From Novosphingobium sp. Fuku2-ISO-50 (lineage in GTDB: Bacteria > Pseudomonadota > Alphaproteobacteria > Sphingomonadales > Sphingomonadaceae), in assembly GCF_001519055.1 (NCBI RefSeq), contig NZ_KQ954298.1, forward strand, positions 1-64,000: DNA of 64,000 nt, in the 5' to 3' direction. Every line of letters starts with the position of its first letter. Position 1 is the stretch's first letter. Shown here one piece after another: positions 29,016 through 38,776 of the stretch. Both the position numbers and the translations under genes were made by a program. The notes beneath the pieces were generated by a model. The model was given only the letters and a program-made list of their open reading frames with translations. It ran no database searches and had not been told where the DNA came from.

Positions 29016-29573
29016 TCATTTCCTGGCTCGGTCCGACCTCGTGCCGAACGATGCCATACTTCGCAGCACGCCATCGCGCCGGATCAGACCGTGAAACAGT
29101 GCCGCCCCCAGGTGCCCCAGAATCAGCAGGAAAAAGCCATAGCCCAAAAGCCCATGAACCCAACTCAGCCAGCCGAAAAGGCGCAGGCTGTGCGAGAGGA
29201 TCGGCGGCAATATGGTTCCTGGCCACAATTGCACGGGCGTTCCTGCGGCTGACAGCATCGCCCAGCCAATCAACGGCATGGCGAACATCAGCGCATACAG
29301 GAAATAGTGCGAACCCCGGGCTACGACAGTTTGTAGACGTGGCAAGGCGGCTGGCAATGGTGGTGCGCGATGGGTGAGCCGCACTAACAGCCGCAGCATG
29401 GCCACCACCAATATCGTGACGCCCAGTGGTCGGTGCCAAGTCAGCAATGCGGGATAGGCCCAGCTCGCGGTCGACACCATACCCGCGCCGACGAACAGCA
29501 TGGCCAGTATCATCATCGCCATGGCCCAATGCAAGACACGCGCGGGCAGCGCATAACGATCTGGCGGGATCAT
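29016..29573 (-). CDS. Cytochrome b561
   Basis: A 185-residue integral membrane protein with four predicted membrane helices: LHWAMAMMILAMLFVGAGM, YPALLTWHRPLGVTILVVAM, HYFLYALMFAMPLIGWAML and WVHGLLGYGFFLLILGHLG. The haem-ligating His positions of the bacterial b561 family lie in helix 1 (VLHW), in LTWHRPLG, and in WVHGLLG/LGHLG. It would pass electrons between quinone and a periplasmic partner. The start overlaps the stop of the catalase-like gene (ATGA), so the two form an operon, a pairing known for SrpA-type catalases with cytochrome b561. Confidence 0.88.
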   Translation of the reverse strand: MIPPDRYALPARVLHWAMAMMILAMLFVGAGMVSTASWAYPALLTWHRPLGVTILVVAMLRLLVRLTHRAPPLPAALPRLQTVVARGSHYFLYALMFAMPLIGWAMLSAAGTPVQLWPGTILPPILSHSLRLFGWLSWVHGLLGYGFFLLILGHLGAALFHGLIRRDGVLRSMASFGTRSDRARK

Positions 29574-30649
29574 TTCGCAATTCCTTGATTGACCGGGACG
29601 GAAACGCGGCGCGGCCCTTCCTTGGCGCGACGACGGAACGATGCAGAATAGGCGGCCGAACGCCCGGCCAGCAGCGGATCGTCCGACCCCGACACGCCGT
29701 CGGGCAGGATCAGCGGATCGAACACCACATCGCGACAATCGCCCGACACCTCAGGCACTGCGTGCGTCAGTGTCAATGTGCCGACGTCGATCCGCCCATG
29801 CCCGGGGCCCCATTGGACCGCGGCATTATTGGTCGCATCACCATGATTAGAAGGGATAATAACCAGATGCCAACGCACTGGTCCTTGGCTGGCGCGCGCC
29901 AAATATTTGTCGAACAGCGCATCGGTCGGCAGGCGGTCAAGGCTCGCCTTGTCCAGCGCGGAGAAGTTGTCTTCGGGTTCGAACTGCCAGCGCACGGCGT
30001 GCGTCTCGCCCGTATTGTTCGTGAAGCGGAACGCATTGATGCTGTAATAGGTGCCGTTGGCAAAACTCGACGGCAGCGGCGCCGACTTCATATAGGCCAT
30101 GAAACGCCGCGTTTCAGGATGGCTGGCCAGAAAGGCCGCCATCCGCACAGGGTCTGGCATCTTGGTGACAGAGTCTGGCTTGCTGGCGATCTGGAACGCC
30201 TGAAAATCAGTAGGTGTCGACACAATGAAGATCGGCGTATGATCCAGTGCCATGCGCCATTCTTCGCCCCCCGGCAGCACAAAGCGCAAAGCCAGCGCGT
30301 GGAACACATTGCGCCCGTCGGGGGCGTCAGGATTGCCCCCGGCGAGCGAAAAGCGGCCCGACACCGGCGTCATGGCTCCCGCCTGGAACAGCAGCGTGCG
30401 TGAGAGGGTCGCGCCTGCACCGTTGCTCGCAAAGCGACCCGAAACGCACAAGCCCTTGGCGTGCGCGCGCCGGGCTCCGAGGAAGACTTTGCCGCTGTTG
30501 TACTGCATGGCATCGACGATCGAGCCGCCACTGACGCGGCCTGGCGTGAGCCAGCCGGCAACCCATGCGAAAAGCAGTGCTATAGCGCCAAGTATTGCTC
30601 CGGTAAGGGCTAGGCGCGGCAACATCCGGGGATGGGGATCAGGTGGCAT
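29570..30649 (-). CDS. Catalase-family peroxidase (SrpA-like), exported
   Basis: A 359-residue protein of the minimal catalase family. An N-terminal membrane or signal segment (LALTGAILGAIALLFAWVAG) indicates export. The catalase-like core includes RRAHAKGLCVSGRFASNGAG, where the His corresponds to the distal catalytic His, and FSLAGGNPDAPDGRNVFHAL. The proximal Tyr region is less obvious to me. GGAG 6 nt upstream supports ATG 30649. A GGAAT-N17-CGTC promoter lies 30 nt upstream of the start, divergent from an identical one for the ECF sigma gene. The likely role is detoxification of peroxides in the periplasm together with cytochrome b561. Confidence 0.85.
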   Translation of the reverse strand: MPPDPHPRMLPRLALTGAILGAIALLFAWVAGWLTPGRVSGGSIVDAMQYNSGKVFLGARRAHAKGLCVSGRFASNGAGATLSRTLLFQAGAMTPVSGRFSLAGGNPDAPDGRNVFHALALRFVLPGGEEWRMALDHTPIFIVSTPTDFQAFQIASKPDSVTKMPDPVRMAAFLASHPETRRFMAYMKSAPLPSSFANGTYYSINAFRFTNNTGETHAVRWQFEPEDNFSALDKASLDRLPTDALFDKYLARASQGPVRWHLVIIPSNHGDATNNAAVQWGPGHGRIDVGTLTLTHAVPEVSGDCRDVVFDPLILPDGVSGSDDPLLAGRSAAYSASFRRRAKEGPRRVSVPVNQGIAK

Positions 30650-30678
30650 GGCGGTCTCCTGCAGAGGTTTGAGGCAGG

Positions 30679-30739
30679 GACGCAAGCTGCGGGCAGATTA
30701 TTCCCCGGGTGCCGGAATAAATTTTGCGACCACAACGTC
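30679..30739. promoter_or_regulatory. Mirror-image pair of ECF sigma promoters
   Basis: Minus strand: GGAAT at 30704-30700, 17-nt spacer, CGTC at 30682-30679. Plus strand: GGAAT at 30714-30718, 17-nt spacer, CGTC at 30736-30739. Identical -35, spacer length and -10 on both strands suggest that the ECF factor transcribes both itself and the catalase/cytochrome operon. Confidence 0.75.
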
Positions 30740-30748
30740 TGCCCCACG

Positions 30749-31264
30749 ATGCACGACATGATGTTGATCCTCGAGCCCCTGATCCCGGGCCTGCGCCGAT
30801 ATGCGCGCGCACTGGTGCGAGATGCCGCAATAGCCGATGATCTCGTTCAAGATTGTCTGGAACGCGCCATCGTCCGCTGGCACCAGCGCAGACCCGAGCG
30901 TAGCGCTCGGGCCTGGCTCTATGCCATCCTGCACAATGCAGCGATCGATCGGGGCCGCCGCATGGCCCGTCAGGGCCGCCACGTGGCGATTGAGGATACC
31001 GATCAGGCCGATCTGGCAGCGCCGCCCACGCAGGAATGCGGGCTGCACACTGGCGACGTACTGGCCGCCATCGACCTGTTGCCTGGAGATCAGCGCGCGG
31101 TGCTGTTGCTGGTCGGCGTTGAGGACTTGAGTTATGCCGAGGCTGCCGAAGTGGCGGGCGTGCCGATCGGCACCGTCATGTCACGGCTGTCACGCGGCCG
31201 GGATCAGCTTCGCGCCTTGCTGGATAGCAAGTCCACGCGCCCCACACTCAGGAGAGTGAAGTGA
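30749..31264 (+). CDS. ECF-family RNA polymerase sigma factor
   Basis: A 171-residue ECF sigma factor. Region 2 reads YARALVRDAAIADDLVQDCL, ARAWLYAILHNAAIDRGRR; region 4 reads LPGDQRAVLLLVGVEDLSYA then GVPIGTVMSRLSRGRDQLR. The promoter's -10 ends only 9 nt before ATG 30749, so the message may be nearly leaderless or start at ATG 30758. The stop overlaps the GTG start of the anti-sigma gene. Together with the mirrored promoters this is a self-amplifying switch. Confidence 0.92.
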   Translation: MHDMMLILEPLIPGLRRYARALVRDAAIADDLVQDCLERAIVRWHQRRPERSARAWLYAILHNAAIDRGRRMARQGRHVAIEDTDQADLAAPPTQECGLHTGDVLAAIDLLPGDQRAVLLLVGVEDLSYAEAAEVAGVPIGTVMSRLSRGRDQLRALLDSKSTRPTLRRVK

Positions 31265-32046
31265 ACGAGCGGCCGATTACCGAGGACGACCTGCAAGCCT
31301 ATGTCGATGAGCGGCTCGAACCGCCGCGCCAGCGCAGTGTTGAGGCATATCTGGCCGGAAACGCCGAGATGCAGGCACGGATCGCCGCACTCGTCGCCCA
31401 GCGCAATGCATTGCGCGCGGCCCTTGCGCCGATCGTTGCAGAGCCCATCCCTAGCCGGCTGGATGTCTGGCACTTCGCGCCGCACCGCCCGCGCTGGAAC
31501 GGATGGCTGCGCCCGCTGCCGGCGCTTGCTGCTTCGCTGGCGCTGCTGTGCATAGGTGGGCTGGCGGGCTGGCAGGTGCGCGGAGGCATCAATCCGCAGG
31601 AAAACGGCATCGGCGCGCTCGCTAAAGAGGCCGCCGACAGCTATACCGTATTCGCGACCGACACGCTTCGCCCGGTCGAGGTGTCCGAACCGGCGACGCT
31701 CAGCCATTGGGTCACCAGCCGGCTCCATCGCCCAGTGGGCGTGCCGGACCTGACCGGCGCGGGGTTCCGCTTGCTGGGTGGGCGAGTGGTGGCGACGCCG
31801 CACGGTCCGGCCGGGCTATACATATATGAGAGTAAACAAGGCGCACGGCTGGGTGTGCTGGTGCGACCGATGAAAATTGATCGCACCACCAGGATGGCCG
31901 AACAAAGTTTTGGTGATTTGAGCGGTTTTACATGGGCGGACGGTGGGATCGGTTACAGCCTCGTCGGAGCCGCTTCCGCATCGACTCTTCATCCCTTTGC
32001 AGACCAGATCAGGCAGCAATCGGTCGGCAAGACGACATCTGGCTGA
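31261..32046 (+). CDS. Membrane-anchored anti-sigma factor
   Basis: A 261-residue protein with a GTG start that overlaps the sigma stop. The N-terminal ~60 residues (ITEDDLQAYVDERLEPPRQ, VEAYLAGNAEMQARI) are the anti-sigma fold. The HxxxCxxC zinc motif is absent, so it is the zinc-free type. One membrane helix is at about 86-104 (ALAASLALLCIGGLAGW). The periplasmic domain (about 155 residues) ends with a sensor-like beta-rich segment. It would hold the sigma factor at the membrane until an envelope or peroxide signal releases it. Confidence 0.88.
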   Translation: MNERPITEDDLQAYVDERLEPPRQRSVEAYLAGNAEMQARIAALVAQRNALRAALAPIVAEPIPSRLDVWHFAPHRPRWNGWLRPLPALAASLALLCIGGLAGWQVRGGINPQENGIGALAKEAADSYTVFATDTLRPVEVSEPATLSHWVTSRLHRPVGVPDLTGAGFRLLGGRVVATPHGPAGLYIYESKQGARLGVLVRPMKIDRTTRMAEQSFGDLSGFTWADGGIGYSLVGAASASTLHPFADQIRQQSVGKTTSG

Positions 32047-32671: not shown

Positions 32672-35600
32672 ATGGAGCGACCTGCAAGTACAGCCGCACG
32701 GGCATCTGGTGAGGGCGAGCGTGCTGCTCGCCGTGGCTACGTCCATCAGGATCGTGTGTCAGCGCGACTAATCTACGAGGCGATTATTGATCGTCGTCTT
32801 GCATGGATCGGACTCGCGGACCGCGGGGCGGGGATGGCAGATGACCTCGTTCTTGGGCTTGGTACAGGATTGGTCGTTGGCCATCAATTCAAACGGTCCC
32901 AAAAGCCCTCCGCGCTTGGTTTGACGGCATTGTGGCTCGGTAAAAGCGAGGGGATTGCCGATCTCGCCCGGTCCTATCAATTGCTGCGCGCGCAATTCCC
33001 TAACCGCCAAATTCGGTTGCGCTATCTGACCAACAATTATCCCACAAGAAATGACAAATTGGTCAAGGGCAAGGCTGACTGCACGACTGCCGACTTTCTC
33101 GCCGAACAATCGGCGCATCCAGGGCGAACGCTTTTGGAATGGCGAGCCACGAACTGGGAACCGCTCATCAATGCTCTGGTCAAAGCATCAGGGCTGGCGG
33201 ACACCGATTTCGAACATTTTTGGCGCGATCTAGAGTTGGTCATGGGGCCTGCAGCTGCGCCAGCGCTGGACCCGACCGAGGATTCCGAGCGATCACAACA
33301 GATCGAAGATCTGGCTCGGGCGCTTTCAGTGCTCGTAGTTGATGAAGTCAAGGACCGTTGGACGCGCGCGGAGCTTCTCGATGCGGTTGGCTGGCGCGAT
33401 CGCTTTCAGCTTCGCTATATTCATGACTTTCCAATGGGCGCATATGTCCAGCGCAATGAGCTTAGCGAACAAAGGCTGTCGAGCGTCATCGGTGATCATC
33501 TGGGCGGCTATGTGAGTCTGCTCGGTCCGCCAGGGACCGGCAAGTCCACCTTGTTGCAGCGGGAGCTTCGAGATCAGCCGCAGCTCCATGTCGTCCGCTA
33601 TCTCGCCTTTGTGCCGGGCGGTGCGTTGGGGCAAGGGCGGGGCGAGGCCGATTCCTTCTACGACGATGTATGCGCTCAGCTCGCCAGCTTCGGGCTAAAG
33701 CTGCCGCGTCTGAAGGAGGATTCAACCAAGGGGCGGCAGGACAGCTTTGCCGCAATGGTCGAGCAGGCAGGGCAGGATTATGCTGAGCATGGCGCGCGCT
33801 ACCTGATAGTCGTTGACGGGCTCGATCACATTCCGCGCGAGGAACATCCCAACCGTTCGCTTCTTGCCGCCTTACCACTTCCTCAGGCGGTCCCCGCTGG
33901 GGTACTGTTCGTGCTGGGCACACAGCGCCTCGATCTGGCTTGCCTGCCGCGTGCCGTGTCTGACCAGGCCGCAAATGAAGACCGTCGGGTGGATATTGCG
34001 CCGCTCCCAAGGCTGGCGGTCGCCTCCATGTCAGATCGGCTTGGCCTTCCATCTGACATCTCGCGCGATGATGTCTTTCGGCTCGGTGCAGGGCATCCGC
34101 TAGCGACGCGCTATTTGATCCAGCGGTTGATCATGGCCGGTCCGGATGAATGCGAGGCCTTGCTTGCCGGTGAGCAAGCATTTGGCGGCGATCTCGAGGC
34201 AATATATGACGCCGCTTGGCGCGGGATTGAGCAGGTGACGCCACCTCAGGACATAAAACGAGTGCTTGCCTTGTTGGCCCGCGTCCAAGGTTCTATCGAA
34301 CCTGAACTTCTGGCCCGCGCGACCACGGATGCGGCAGTTGAAGCGACCTTGACGCAGGCGGGATATTTGCTTGACCGCCGCGACATTGGCTGGAGCGTGT
34401 TTCACAACAGCTTCAGGCTTTACCTGCACACAAAGCCGGTCCTGCGCTTCGGCGGTCACGACCCGGAGTTTTCGCCGCCCGAATTGTACCGCAAGCTGGC
34501 GGCGTTGGCTGCTAATGCTGCACCAAAGAGTCCACAACGGTGGCTCAAGTTTCGCTACCTCTATCTTGCCGGAATCCGTGATGACGCGCTCAAGATTGCG
34601 AACCGCGAGATGTTCAATAGCCAATATTGCGCCGGCCGTGCCGCGCGCGACGTGCTGGGCGATATTGACGATGCATTCCGACTGCTCGGTGCGGCCGATG
34701 ATCCCGTAAGACTGTTCGATTTGATGCTTGCCGCAGATGAGATCAGGCGCCGCACCGACGTGATGGAAAACGCACCTCTGGTTAGTTCTTACTTGGCAGC
34801 TGGTAATCTGAGCTCAGCCATTGGGGCACTTCGCGAAGGGAGCGACTCGGACGGCCAATGGGATGTCATTGATGCCCTAATTCAAGCCGGTGAACCCGAA
34901 CAAGCGCGGCAACTTTTTGAGGAGGAAAATCCGTTTCGTCTGCTAGCAGATTCTGCGAGGCCTTATTCTTGGCGTAATACAACAGCTGCATTGCCATGGG
35001 CGGAACGTGCCGTTCTGTTTCTTGATCGCGAGCAGATCAATCGGATCCTGACGCGCGCCTATAGCGACGGCGATATAGAGGGCGTAACTCACGACGATCT
35101 CGACTCTCTGTCCGAAGCCCTAAAGTTCCAGGTCGCAAGAGCAATGTCTCGCGGGGGTGAGACGGATATCGATCTGTTGGCGCAACACTGGTCCGTACCA
35201 ACGGATGCAAGACCGTTGTTACTGCTTGAAGCCGCCGATAGAGCTTTTGGCGGAGGCGACGCGGCGCTCACCAGTCAATTGCTCAGCGATGCTCTGGTAG
35301 AGTCCGGATTCCCTGAACTTGGCCCCTCTTGGGCGCAACTAGGCGCCCGGCTCGCGATACGGTGTGGGGATGCTGATCTTGCGCGAGCCTTCCTGGTCCA
35401 TGTGCCAGTCCTGAGCCTCAATCGCGTGGCGAAGTTCGATCAGACAGCGGCCCTCACCGATGCATGTAAAGCACTTCTTAGGGGAACTGTCCTATACGTC
35501 GCAGCCGGCGAGAAATTGCCTGCTTTAGACCTACCGGAAGAACGGCTGATTCGTGGTCTACAGCATCATTTGTTGGCGCTTGGTAGTTTGACCGGGAGCG

Positions 35601-38600
35601 TCATCGGCGGCGATATTGCCAGTCAAGGTGAGGTCGATCGACTTGCCGCCAGCGCGATCAAGTTTGTGGCAGCAGCGAGTGCCACTTCGGATGAAGACTG
35701 GTCATCTGGCTATTTTGTGCCTCAGGCAGCCGAGGTTGTTGCGGGAGCCGTCTTCGATTTGATTCATTACTCGCGTCAGCAGGTTGCGCCTACGCTTGCC
35801 CTTATCGACCAGTTGATAGCAGGCAATCAGGCACTTTTCCGCTTCTGGCCCGGATTTCGACGGTTAGTTGTGACCAGAGGATTTTCGCTCGATCAGGATG
35901 TCACAGCAGCAGAAAGACGCGCTGAACAAGGGCTGGCGGATCTTGAGGAGAGTGATCCGCGTGCAGAAGTTGAAGAGCAATGCGCTTGGGCCAAGTCCTT
36001 CGCAACTATTGGGATGACGACGCGGGCCGAACAGGTTTTGGCCGAGCTCCGGCAACGTTCGCTTGGCATCTATCTTCAGGCCAAGAAAGACCCCATTTAC
36101 AGTCTCTGGGTGGAGGTGCTGGCCGGTGCAAATCGGGCGGATCCGGAGCGTCGTGCATCACGAGCAATGGTCACGATGCGGCTCCTTGATGGCCTGCGAC
36201 AGACAGAAGGCTCGGGCATGAGATGGCGCATCGGACGTCAGTTTCTTGCCGAGGCGGCATCGGCAGATACTGAGACCGCGAGGCGCGCAGCTGAGATCGC
36301 CCTCGAAAACGGTATGATGGGCTGGGATGGCATTGTCGATGCGGTGCTGCGAGGCATCTTGAGACGCAATCCGGCAATGAGCGCTGTTGCACTCGCAGTC
36401 TGGCAGCGGATTGCTCTGCCATGGTACAATGAACCACACGCAAGCACGACGCCCACCGGACAGTTTCTGACCGATTTGATCGCTTCTGCGGACATGAGCG
36501 AGGTTGGAGATCTGGAAGCCCGCGCAGCAGCCGCAATCGAAATTCAGGCGCGACCTGGCATTCGCGCGTCACTTCTGGGGGTACTCGAAGAAGCTGCACA
36601 AGCTCGAGGCCACGGTGATGCAACTCGAAAAGTTGCTGCCCGTTTGGGCGCTGGAGCCGCTAGTACATCTGGAAACCCAGAAAACAGGTCATATCGACAT
36701 ATTGTTGATTTCCGCGGCATTGTGGATGCCATAGCAAGCGAGCAGGTTTGGCGAGAATCCCATTCTGGCGGCCATCCACTTTCCGACTATGACCGGCTCC
36801 CAACTTATGGCTTGCGAGAGGCGGCAGTACGTGTGATCGGCAAGGCCGATTGGCAGGAGGCGCACGCATTTGGGTTAGCGCATCCATTACTTGTTGCAGA
36901 CCGAATCATCGGGATGGCGTTAGCTAAGCGAGCGTTAGAGGCGAAAGACGAGGCCGCTGCCCGAATGCTTCTCTCACCATTTCTTGAACCTAAGGTGGAA
37001 AGTTACAATTGGGCGAGCAGTAGCGGGCGACGCGGTGTCTACAAAGCGCGGCAATTGCTTGGCGAAGCCGACGTGCGTGAGGCGGCGCGAGGTGAGTTCG
37101 TGACTGATTTGTATCAGTCGCAGCACGGTGTCGCTTCCGCACTCTGGGAGATTGAGGAAATATTCCCGTTACTTTTCGATCCAGTGCCGTGGCCAGACCT
37201 TTGGACTGTCCTCGGGCAACAAATATTGATGATGCGCGAATATCGGTTGGGCGCTGACTTGCCCAAGCCCACGGAATCGGACGATGATCATGGCTTGATT
37301 GCATGGCTGATGTTGCAAGCGCTGACGCTTGGCATCCCGATCGTCAACGCCGAAGCTATGCGGGCGGCTGACGACCTACTGGACCTTGGCGCCAATAAGA
37401 TTTTTGATCATGTTGCCGATCGCCTGATCACAGCGGGTGGCGAGCAACGCATGATCGGGATGGATCTGTTAACAACGGCGGTCAATCGACAGGCTGTGCG
37501 GGAAGCTTGGATTGATCGGATTGATGCGTTAGCCGCTGATCCAGATGGAGGCGTGGCTGCGGCGGCATCATTTCTGTCGGAGCGGTGGGCAAGGCCGTTA
37601 ATCGCAGTTCGGTCAGATTTACCCAACTTTTATCGCATTTATTTGCCCGAACCCGCACAAATCACTGAGGCCATTGCGACAGATCGAAAGACGTGCGGCA
37701 TGCGGCTCGAAGATCCACTCGGCTGGACAGAGCCCTGGATCGGTTTGGTTGAGCGTATCGCGAGAGATGCCGGCGTCCAGCCTCTGCAGATACGCTGGCG
37801 GGTGGGGCAACTTATCCAATCCTGGGGCGGCATCGCACGGTTCGGCCATCCCGCCTCGCAAAAACTGGAATCCAGGCTAGACCAGGTGCAGATGAAAATG
37901 AACTACCGGCGGCCGCAAGTCGAAGCCGTGTTGCGTGCTTTTCGCCATATAATAGGCGAACTTGCCGCTGCGGGACGGCTCGATACCGACGATTGGCGCA
38001 TGATGCTCATTCGGACTCACGCTTATCCTGACCGAATGCAGCTGCCGAATCCGATGGCGATGCCGCAAGCTATCCGGCTTCCGGTAATTCCGGGCGATCT
38101 TTGGCTTAGAGAGCGGCAAGCTTGGCTCGACGCGGTTGCTGAAGATCTCGATGGCCGTAGCGCGTCCGTGGATATGACCGTGTTGGCCGAATGGCGCCGA
38201 CTGACCGATCGCAAAATCCGCGTGACTCAAATAGCCGAATTTTGGCGCGCGATGGGGCCGTACGATGAATTGCCGATGCTAAAGGACGTACTCGGCGGAT
38301 TGCCGGGCGCGTTTCCTTTTGGCTCTCAAATCATCAGTCTGGAGGGCAGTGTGACCGCGGGATTCGTCGTCTGTCTCGATCCTCATCTTGCCCAAGGTGA
38401 GCCGCCTCGCGTTCTCGTCTTCTGCCCGTGCGCGGCTATCGAACTCGGCTGGTCGAGGGATAGCAGATCCTGCCACCTCTATCGGGATTCGAGCAACTCA
38501 GTCATGGCTGAGACCATCTGGTGGAGAAGCGGCCTGCCGCAGTCAATCGACGAAGATGCCACGTGGGCCGAGGGCCAGCGTGTCGTATTGACACCTGCCG

Positions 38601-38776
38601 GACGACTGCAGTTTGAGGCGAGATTTGGTGCAATTAGAGGGACAACCTCGGCCTGGAGGCGGATAGAGGCCTCAGACGACGACGGTGGCGGCGGCGTCAG
38701 ATTTGCAACCGATGCGGCCCGGGGGCCGAAGAAGCCACCCTTTTTACCCCCGCTTAGCCCATCATCGAATGGCTAA
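32672..38776 (+). CDS. Giant STAND-like NTPase with possible N-terminal nuclease domain (candidate anti-phage protein)
   Basis: A 2034-residue protein. Residues about 20-190 look like a Cap4/DUF4297-type PD-(D/E)xK nuclease: GYVHQDRVSARLIYEAI, then acidic DDLVLGL (57-63) and GHQFKRSQ with Gln72-x-Lys74, a Q-x-K variant of the catalytic pair. A STAND-type P-loop NTPase follows: Walker A GPPGTGKST at 285-293, Walker B YLIVVDGLDHIPRE at 377-390, and a likely sensor (FVLGTQRLDL). Beyond about 600 come ~1400 residues of mostly helical, repeat-like sequence that would act as sensor. This order of effector, STAND and long sensor is that of Avs-type antiviral proteins. The domain calls are from motifs only. 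The start has no clear Shine-Dalgarno sequence. The neighbouring ImmA-like pair lies convergent. Confidence 0.7.
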   Translation: MERPASTAARASGEGERAARRGYVHQDRVSARLIYEAIIDRRLAWIGLADRGAGMADDLVLGLGTGLVVGHQFKRSQKPSALGLTALWLGKSEGIADLARSYQLLRAQFPNRQIRLRYLTNNYPTRNDKLVKGKADCTTADFLAEQSAHPGRTLLEWRATNWEPLINALVKASGLADTDFEHFWRDLELVMGPAAAPALDPTEDSERSQQIEDLARALSVLVVDEVKDRWTRAELLDAVGWRDRFQLRYIHDFPMGAYVQRNELSEQRLSSVIGDHLGGYVSLLGPPGTGKSTLLQRELRDQPQLHVVRYLAFVPGGALGQGRGEADSFYDDVCAQLASFGLKLPRLKEDSTKGRQDSFAAMVEQAGQDYAEHGARYLIVVDGLDHIPREEHPNRSLLAALPLPQAVPAGVLFVLGTQRLDLACLPRAVSDQAANEDRRVDIAPLPRLAVASMSDRLGLPSDISRDDVFRLGAGHPLATRYLIQRLIMAGPDECEALLAGEQAFGGDLEAIYDAAWRGIEQVTPPQDIKRVLALLARVQGSIEPELLARATTDAAVEATLTQAGYLLDRRDIGWSVFHNSFRLYLHTKPVLRFGGHDPEFSPPELYRKLAALAANAAPKSPQRWLKFRYLYLAGIRDDALKIANREMFNSQYCAGRAARDVLGDIDDAFRLLGAADDPVRLFDLMLAADEIRRRTDVMENAPLVSSYLAAGNLSSAIGALREGSDSDGQWDVIDALIQAGEPEQARQLFEEENPFRLLADSARPYSWRNTTAALPWAERAVLFLDREQINRILTRAYSDGDIEGVTHDDLDSLSEALKFQVARAMSRGGETDIDLLAQHWSVPTDARPLLLLEAADRAFGGGDAALTSQLLSDALVESGFPELGPSWAQLGARLAIRCGDADLARAFLVHVPVLSLNRVAKFDQTAALTDACKALLRGTVLYVAAGEKLPALDLPEERLIRGLQHHLLALGSLTGSVIGGDIASQGEVDRLAASAIKFVAAASATSDEDWSSGYFVPQAAEVVAGAVFDLIHYSRQQVAPTLALIDQLIAGNQALFRFWPGFRRLVVTRGFSLDQDVTAAERRAEQGLADLEESDPRAEVEEQCAWAKSFATIGMTTRAEQVLAELRQRSLGIYLQAKKDPIYSLWVEVLAGANRADPERRASRAMVTMRLLDGLRQTEGSGMRWRIGRQFLAEAASADTETARRAAEIALENGMMGWDGIVDAVLRGILRRNPAMSAVALAVWQRIALPWYNEPHASTTPTGQFLTDLIASADMSEVGDLEARAAAAIEIQARPGIRASLLGVLEEAAQARGHGDATRKVAARLGAGAASTSGNPENRSYRHIVDFRGIVDAIASEQVWRESHSGGHPLSDYDRLPTYGLREAAVRVIGKADWQEAHAFGLAHPLLVADRIIGMALAKRALEAKDEAAARMLLSPFLEPKVESYNWASSSGRRGVYKARQLLGEADVREAARGEFVTDLYQSQHGVASALWEIEEIFPLLFDPVPWPDLWTVLGQQILMMREYRLGADLPKPTESDDDHGLIAWLMLQALTLGIPIVNAEAMRAADDLLDLGANKIFDHVADRLITAGGEQRMIGMDLLTTAVNRQAVREAWIDRIDALAADPDGGVAAAASFLSERWARPLIAVRSDLPNFYRIYLPEPAQITEAIATDRKTCGMRLEDPLGWTEPWIGLVERIARDAGVQPLQIRWRVGQLIQSWGGIARFGHPASQKLESRLDQVQMKMNYRRPQVEAVLRAFRHIIGELAAAGRLDTDDWRMMLIRTHAYPDRMQLPNPMAMPQAIRLPVIPGDLWLRERQAWLDAVAEDLDGRSASVDMTVLAEWRRLTDRKIRVTQIAEFWRAMGPYDELPMLKDVLGGLPGAFPFGSQIISLEGSVTAGFVVCLDPHLAQGEPPRVLVFCPCAAIELGWSRDSRSCHLYRDSSNSVMAETIWWRSGLPQSIDEDATWAEGQRVVLTPAGRLQFEARFGAIRGTTSAWRRIEASDDDGGGGVRFATDAARGPKKPPFLPPLSPSSNG

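Follow-up and report, generated by a model that had tools for sequence, protein, structure and literature searches.

Two back-to-back predicted ECF26-type promoters, very probably served by one sigma factor, between a sigma operon and a catalase-cytochrome b561 operon in Novosphingobium sp. Fuku2-ISO-50

Two divergent operons lie near the middle of the 64,000-nucleotide (64-kb) stretch of DNA from Novosphingobium sp. Fuku2-ISO-50 that was analysed here (contig NZ_KQ954298.1, referred to as the window). One encodes an extracytoplasmic function (ECF) sigma factor and the other a catalase-family protein together with a cytochrome b561. The features of the locus are as follows.

29016 to 29573, minus strand: cytochrome b561 (PF01292), with a 4-nt overlap between its start and the end of the catalase gene
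29570 to 30649, minus strand: catalase-family protein (probable peroxidase) of 359 aa (PF00199), with an N-terminal hydrophobic stretch seen by eye
30660 to 30655, minus strand: AGGAGA, ribosome-binding site of the catalase gene
30679 to 30682, minus strand: CGTC, putative -10 element of the catalase-b561 promoter, read directly
30700 to 30704, minus strand: GGAAT (GGAATAA at 30698-30704), putative -35 element of the catalase-b561 promoter, read directly and found on the catalase side of the related loci L148, L149, L151, L152 and L153
30698 to 30720, no strand: inverted repeat TTATTCC-CCGGGTGCC-GGAATAA, made up of the two extended -35 elements around a GC-rich 9-bp gap
30714 to 30718, plus strand: GGAAT (GGAATAA at 30714-30720), putative -35 element of the sigma operon promoter, read directly and found in relatives
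30736 to 30739, plus strand: CGTC, putative -10 element of the sigma operon promoter, read directly
30749 to 31264, plus strand: ECF26-like ECF sigma factor of 171 aa (PF04542, PF08281), 44% identical to Sinorhizobium meliloti RpoE6
31261 to 32046, plus strand: probable anti-sigma factor, so named from its position and from the neighbouring gene in relatives, beginning with GTG in a 4-nt overlap with the end of the sigma gene

The identity of 44% to RpoE6 extends over 150 aa and comes from a two-sequence comparison, with RpoE1, RpoE3 and RpoE4 outside it. The gene after the sigma gene is conserved as its neighbour in relatives. Its product showed one hydrophobic stretch by eye, a weak NCBIfam antisigma match under the family cutoff (E 3.8e-5) and no Pfam match above cutoff. 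Among solved structures, the catalase-family protein matched 3e4w best (E 9.5e-32), and the alignment retains the HAKG histidine and the RSAAY tyrosine, two residues with roles in catalases. Its family membership suggests that it acts as a peroxidase. Downstream of the anti-sigma gene, an open frame of 2034 aa (32672-38776, plus strand) encodes an AAA-type ATPase (AAA_22, E 1.7e-6; NACHT only at E 0.026) with a partial match to the anti-phage defence protein Avs1b (E 6.4e-13, residues 259-589).

Both putative promoters have the form GGAAT-N17-CGTC. The minus-strand site, GGAATAATCTGCCCGCAGCTTGCGTC, runs from 30704 to 30679, and the plus-strand site, GGAATAAATTTTGCGACCACAACGTC, from 30714 to 30739. 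A sequence-only reading of this DNA had described identical elements on the two strands with the -35 elements 9 bp apart, and both descriptions were borne out by direct reading of the letters. The 9 bp between the GGAAT elements (CCGGGTGCC) are 11% AT, and the two -10 elements are 53 bp apart.

These sites conform to the ECF26 promoter consensus. The published consensus, -35 GGAAT and -10 CGTC, was tested with reporters and has been described before sorT, rpoE4 and sorA; RpoE4 induced the sorT reporter 260 times and the rpoE4 reporter 16 times (PMC6527743). A cross-species consensus for ECF26 is given as -35 GGAATA and -10 GT, and the S. meliloti rpoE4 promoter is printed there as GGAAT-N17-CGTC, with the same spacing as in the window (PMC6180224). 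RpoE6 targets such as SMa0142 have CGTT as the -10 element, and some of the promoter strings printed in that source do not fit the motif (PMC6180224).

The motif also accompanies related sigma factors elsewhere. GGAATA-N16/17-[CT]GTC was found in sense orientation within 2.5 kb upstream in 73 of 89 related sigma loci, against 0.047 expected per locus from the rate downstream of the sigma start; many of these loci come from related species, so the counts are not independent events. The set comprised loci whose sigma match was at least 50% identical, after removal of copies of the window and repeats of L082 and L086. Spacing was narrow, with 65 matches at 16 nt and 8 at 17 nt; no other spacing between 5 and 29 had more than 11. 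Under this strict rule 16 of the 89 relatives had no motif. For most relatives, the distance from the motif to the sigma gene downstream of it is about 0.5 or 2 kb, presumably because further operon genes stand between them; in Methylobacterium the site is about 100 nt before the sigma gene. When exact GGAAT-N15..19-CGTC was sought no farther than 300 bp from the sigma match, only 7 of 80 loci had it in sense orientation, and a 6-mer comparison had no GGAAT-like word among its top 30.

Among catalase loci, the motif was associated with the presence of the sigma gene. It occurred in all 15 loci with a sigma homologue and in 1 of 24 without one (Fisher P 6e-10), where two stretches were scanned for the sigma-linked group against one for the sigma-less group, and where six of the 15 sigma-linked loci are from Methylobacterium. 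The 39 loci had catalase matches at E 1e-30 or better and were counted after exclusion of eight repeats of the window, L148 and L149; sigma homologues were accepted at E 1e-8 or better and were 37-60% identical to the window sigma. The motif scored was GGAATA-N16/17-[CT]GT[CT] no more than about 250 nt before the catalase or sigma gene (before the catalase only in the sigma-less group). Most sigma-less loci reach some 1.5 kb to each side of the catalase, and a more distant sigma gene would be missed.

The closest catalases (L141-L147, 58-66% identical) have neither the sigma gene nor the motif in their loci, whereas the sigma-linked catalases from the family of the window's host are 53-57% identical to the window catalase. 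This pattern of sequence identities suggests that the link between sigma factor and catalase was probably gained or lost more than once. Gene order is divergent in the window and in five other genomes of the same family (6 of the 18 genomes with a catalase match at E up to 1e-40 among 397), and it varies across alpha-, beta- and gammaproteobacteria. In Methylobacterium and L158 the sigma gene comes first with the catalase on the same strand. Pantoea dispersa has the order catalase, b561, sigma factor and a hypothetical protein weakly similar to the anti-sigma factor (25%), with GGAATAA-N16-CGTC before the catalase, and Caballeronia has other orders. The locus is patchy, since none of nine other genomes sampled from the same genus had the catalase at E up to 1e-40.

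A different case was observed in genome G057 (L150), where a catalase-b561 pair has GGAATAA-N16-CGTC upstream and the sigma gene is absent from the locus. No other GGAATAA-N14/15-YGTC match occurs in the 6.6 Mb of G057, whose best sigma relatives reach 48% and 38% identity. The pair is either regulated in trans or a relic.

A search of the host genome for further promoter copies, which the sequence-only reading had proposed, returned 44 matches to the short pattern GGAAT-N17-CGTC in 4.42 Mb, so the short pattern is not specific, while the extended form GGAATAA-N14/15-YGTC was found at these two sites only. In the window the short pattern occurred three times against 0.91 expected, and 2 of 100 shuffles reached three matches, which makes any single site weak evidence. 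What sets the two sites apart is their place and their pairing. Looser patterns gave no clear excess genome-wide (GGAATA-N15/16-YGTC, 16 matches against 10 with the pattern reversed; GGAATAA-N5..25-NGTC, 29 against 39); the reversed-pattern control, which gave 6 against 44 for the short pattern, is uneven, TAA being a stop codon, and it carries no conclusion. Of the 29 matches, only the two window sites had a spacing of 17 nt, one had 18 and none had 16.

Other sites were considered as members of the regulon. A mechanical test placed each of the 14 other GGAATA-N15/16-YGTC sites within an open frame of 156 aa or more; promoter placement was convincing in none of them, and L205 was the least excluded. 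The site with the 18-nt spacer (L139) is antisense within an open frame. Among strict matches, no further site in the genome passed as a promoter by the mechanical test, and identity to the next sigma paralogues is only 38%, 34% and 32%. For both reasons the regulon of the sigma factor at 30749 looks local, as far as strict matches go.

Taken on sequence comparison, the window very probably contains two separate and complete ECF26-type promoters, placed back to back and both served by the sigma factor encoded at 30749. The earlier proposal that one sigma factor drives its own operon and the catalase-b561 operon is thus strongly supported by the consensus, by the 73 of 89 sigma loci and by the contrast among catalase loci. 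In the scheme that we infer, which covers promoter activity, sigma dependence, start sites, signal, membrane anchoring and electron transfer, the probable anti-sigma factor would keep the ECF26-like sigma factor inactive until an envelope or oxidant signal arrives. The freed sigma factor would then direct RNA polymerase to both promoters. The sigma-side promoter would raise its own operon (self-amplification), and the other would turn on the membrane-anchored catalase-family peroxidase and cytochrome b561, the latter being the probable electron donor to the peroxidase. As both promoters would depend on one sigma factor, they would rise together.

Similar arrangements are known. In the systems RpoE4/sorT of S. 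meliloti and SigE/sorA of Starkeya novella, the promoters have the same -35 GGAAT and -10 CGTC, the sigma gene is co-transcribed with an anti-sigma gene, and a nearby redox enzyme operon is the target, as proposed here (PMC6527743, PMC6180224). RpoE4 activates its own promoter, like the proposed action of the window sigma factor (PMC6527743, PMC6180224). The target of RpoE4 and SigE is, however, a sulfite-oxidising enzyme, whereas that in the window is a catalase-family protein. Self-activation is not universal, as the related locus L152 has a site on the catalase side only, and S. novella SigE is reported not to activate its own promoter, which lacks the motif (PMC6527743). S. meliloti RpoE6 has a divergent target, SMa0142, with a GGAATA promoter, as in the window, and such a divergent arrangement is described as widely conserved in ECF26 (PMC6180224). 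SMa0142 differs in its -10 element (CGTT, not CGTC) and is annotated as a serine protease; the mapped rpoE6 promoter, unlike that of the window, has RpoD/RpoH-like motifs, although the paper still argues for autogenous regulation (PMC6180224). The promoter type and the divergent arrangement are therefore already known for ECF26, and the new details are the link to catalase and cytochrome b561 and the tight spacing. Among the literature matches listed for ECF26 or ECF sigma factors with catalase and cytochrome b561, as judged by titles and the starts of abstracts, this module was not described.

The positions of transcription starts can be predicted from the S. meliloti promoters. In seven of these, picked for their fit to the motif (one has CGAAT), the -10 tetrad lies 7-9 nt, mostly 8, before the mapped start if each printed promoter is read as ending on the start base, a reading that lower-case letters in some of them suggest (PMC6180224). 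By this measure, transcription of the catalase-b561 operon would start at about 30670 (range 30669-30671) and that of the sigma operon at about 30748 (range 30747-30749), some 78 bp apart. The sigma ATG stands 9 nt after the plus-strand -10 tetrad, and an in-frame CGTC-N9-ATG is found at the sigma gene in four of five paired sigma-catalase loci (the window, L149, L151 and L153). Together with the published start distances, this predicts a near-leaderless sigma mRNA with a leader of 0-2 nt, whose start probably falls on the ATG or no more than 2 nt from it. Such a start is not general, as the distance from the tetrad to the homologous sigma ATG is 52 nt in L148, and the site in Methylobacterium is farther away still. 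The catalase ATG comes 29 nt after its -10 tetrad with AGGAGA in between, and a leader of 20-22 nt with a ribosome-binding site is predicted. Given these leaders, translation is probably more efficient for the effector than for the regulator.

The 9-bp gap is not conserved. In the five divergent relatives (L148, L149, L151, L152 and L153), a catalase-side site was present in 5 of 5, with AGTC as the -10 element in L153, and a sigma-side site in 4 of 5. The -35 gaps in 17 related loci ranged from 25 to 92 bp when gaps up to 120 were searched, and were 25 bp in L153 and 32 bp in L042, where one -10 element is GGTC. The Caballeronia locus L215 has a gap of 24 bp with GGTT and TGTT as -10 elements. 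A mirror pair with a 15-bp gap, both sites being GGAAT-N17-CGTC, lies in genome G207 (L179) between another ECF sigma gene (43% identical) and a different divergent gene. In a scan of 397 genomes of the family that allowed gaps of 3-33 bp and required one -10 element, 38 genomes matched, and the same place was matched on both strands in four of them (the window, G052, G335 and G207). At 9 bp, the window has the smallest two-sided gap among the pairs found (others 15-92 bp). The gap is also AT-richer in four relatives (44-71% AT) than in the window (11%).

A-rich stretches such as CAAAATATT or GAAAATTTA were seen in the 25-28 bp gaps of L148, L149, L151 and L153, and are absent from the window gap; they could act as upstream (UP-like) elements common to both promoters. 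Half of the mirror pattern also recurs by mimicry in L172, L173, L181-L183, L185, L187 and others, in a repeated sequence like GACGAGATCAAGGGCGGCAATATTCCCAAGGAATA. It occurs in many genomes of the family with the reading frame DEIKGGNIPKE, which suggests that it is part of an elongation factor G gene.

The 9-bp gap may hinder simultaneous occupancy, and the sequence-only reading had gone on to suggest a competitive switch, in which the two holoenzymes exclude each other and binding at one side shuts the other. We consider such a switch unlikely. That no smaller gap was found would suit it, and steric competition between polymerases is reported at E. coli bidirectional promoters under strong activation of one side (PMC12825309). 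As in the window, symmetric DNA serves two directions there and polymerases may compete (PMC12825309). However, the starts of those promoters are mostly 10-23 bp apart (commonly 10, 18 or 23), whereas the window has separate elements and a predicted distance of about 78 bp, which places it beyond this class, and separate divergent promoters are reported to be unaffected by such clashes (PMC12825309). In five of the E. coli promoters basal transcription was too low for competition (PMC12825309). The suggestion is not supported, moreover, because the 9-bp spacing is not conserved and because two promoters that need the same sigma factor, and are induced together, cannot be switched against each other by it. 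If the gap does bar double occupancy, simple binding theory predicts that at equal affinity neither side is occupied more than half of the time, which would cap self-amplification and not act as a switch.

It is quite improbable that the sites mainly serve another sigma factor, such as a general stress factor of the EcfG type. The EcfG motif is GGAAC/CGTT, but the sites read GGAAT/CGTC, and in catalase loci the motif accompanies the ECF26-like sigma factor. GGAAC/CGTT fits several RpoE2 promoters printed for S. meliloti, where the RpoE6 and RpoE2 regulons do overlap and their motifs are somewhat similar (PMC6180224). An operator for a dimeric transcription factor, in which the 23-bp repeat TTATTCC-N9-GGAATAA would carry the GGAAT matches incidentally, is scarcely credible: its 7-bp arms are perfect, and the window has one inverted pair TTATTCC-N3..30-GGAATAA where none appeared in 100 shuffles of it, but the arms are the ECF26 -35 element, many relatives have a single sense copy, and the distance from GGAATA to GGAATA varies from 15 to 92 bp in relatives while that from GGAATA to [CT]GTC stays at 16 or 17.

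Two separate promoters sharing one sigma factor thus remain the preferred reading. A wider proposal is a long shot to which we give a small chance: that a self-contained ECF26 oxidant-defence module, with one sigma factor driving a membrane-anchored catalase-family peroxidase that cytochrome b561 feeds, is spread across alpha-, beta- and gammaproteobacteria, and that its promoters, 9 bp apart in this bacterium, are mutually exclusive here, limiting self-amplification and fixing the ratio of leaderless sigma mRNA to well-translated effector mRNA.

The best studied members of ECF26 act on sulfite. The results presented here propose a target and a likely role, defence against peroxide or a related oxidant at the membrane, for a branch of this group. 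The exact bases for testing follow from the proposed promoters, and the 9-bp gap of the window together with the 25-28 bp gaps of its relatives forms a natural series on the interference between back-to-back holoenzymes.
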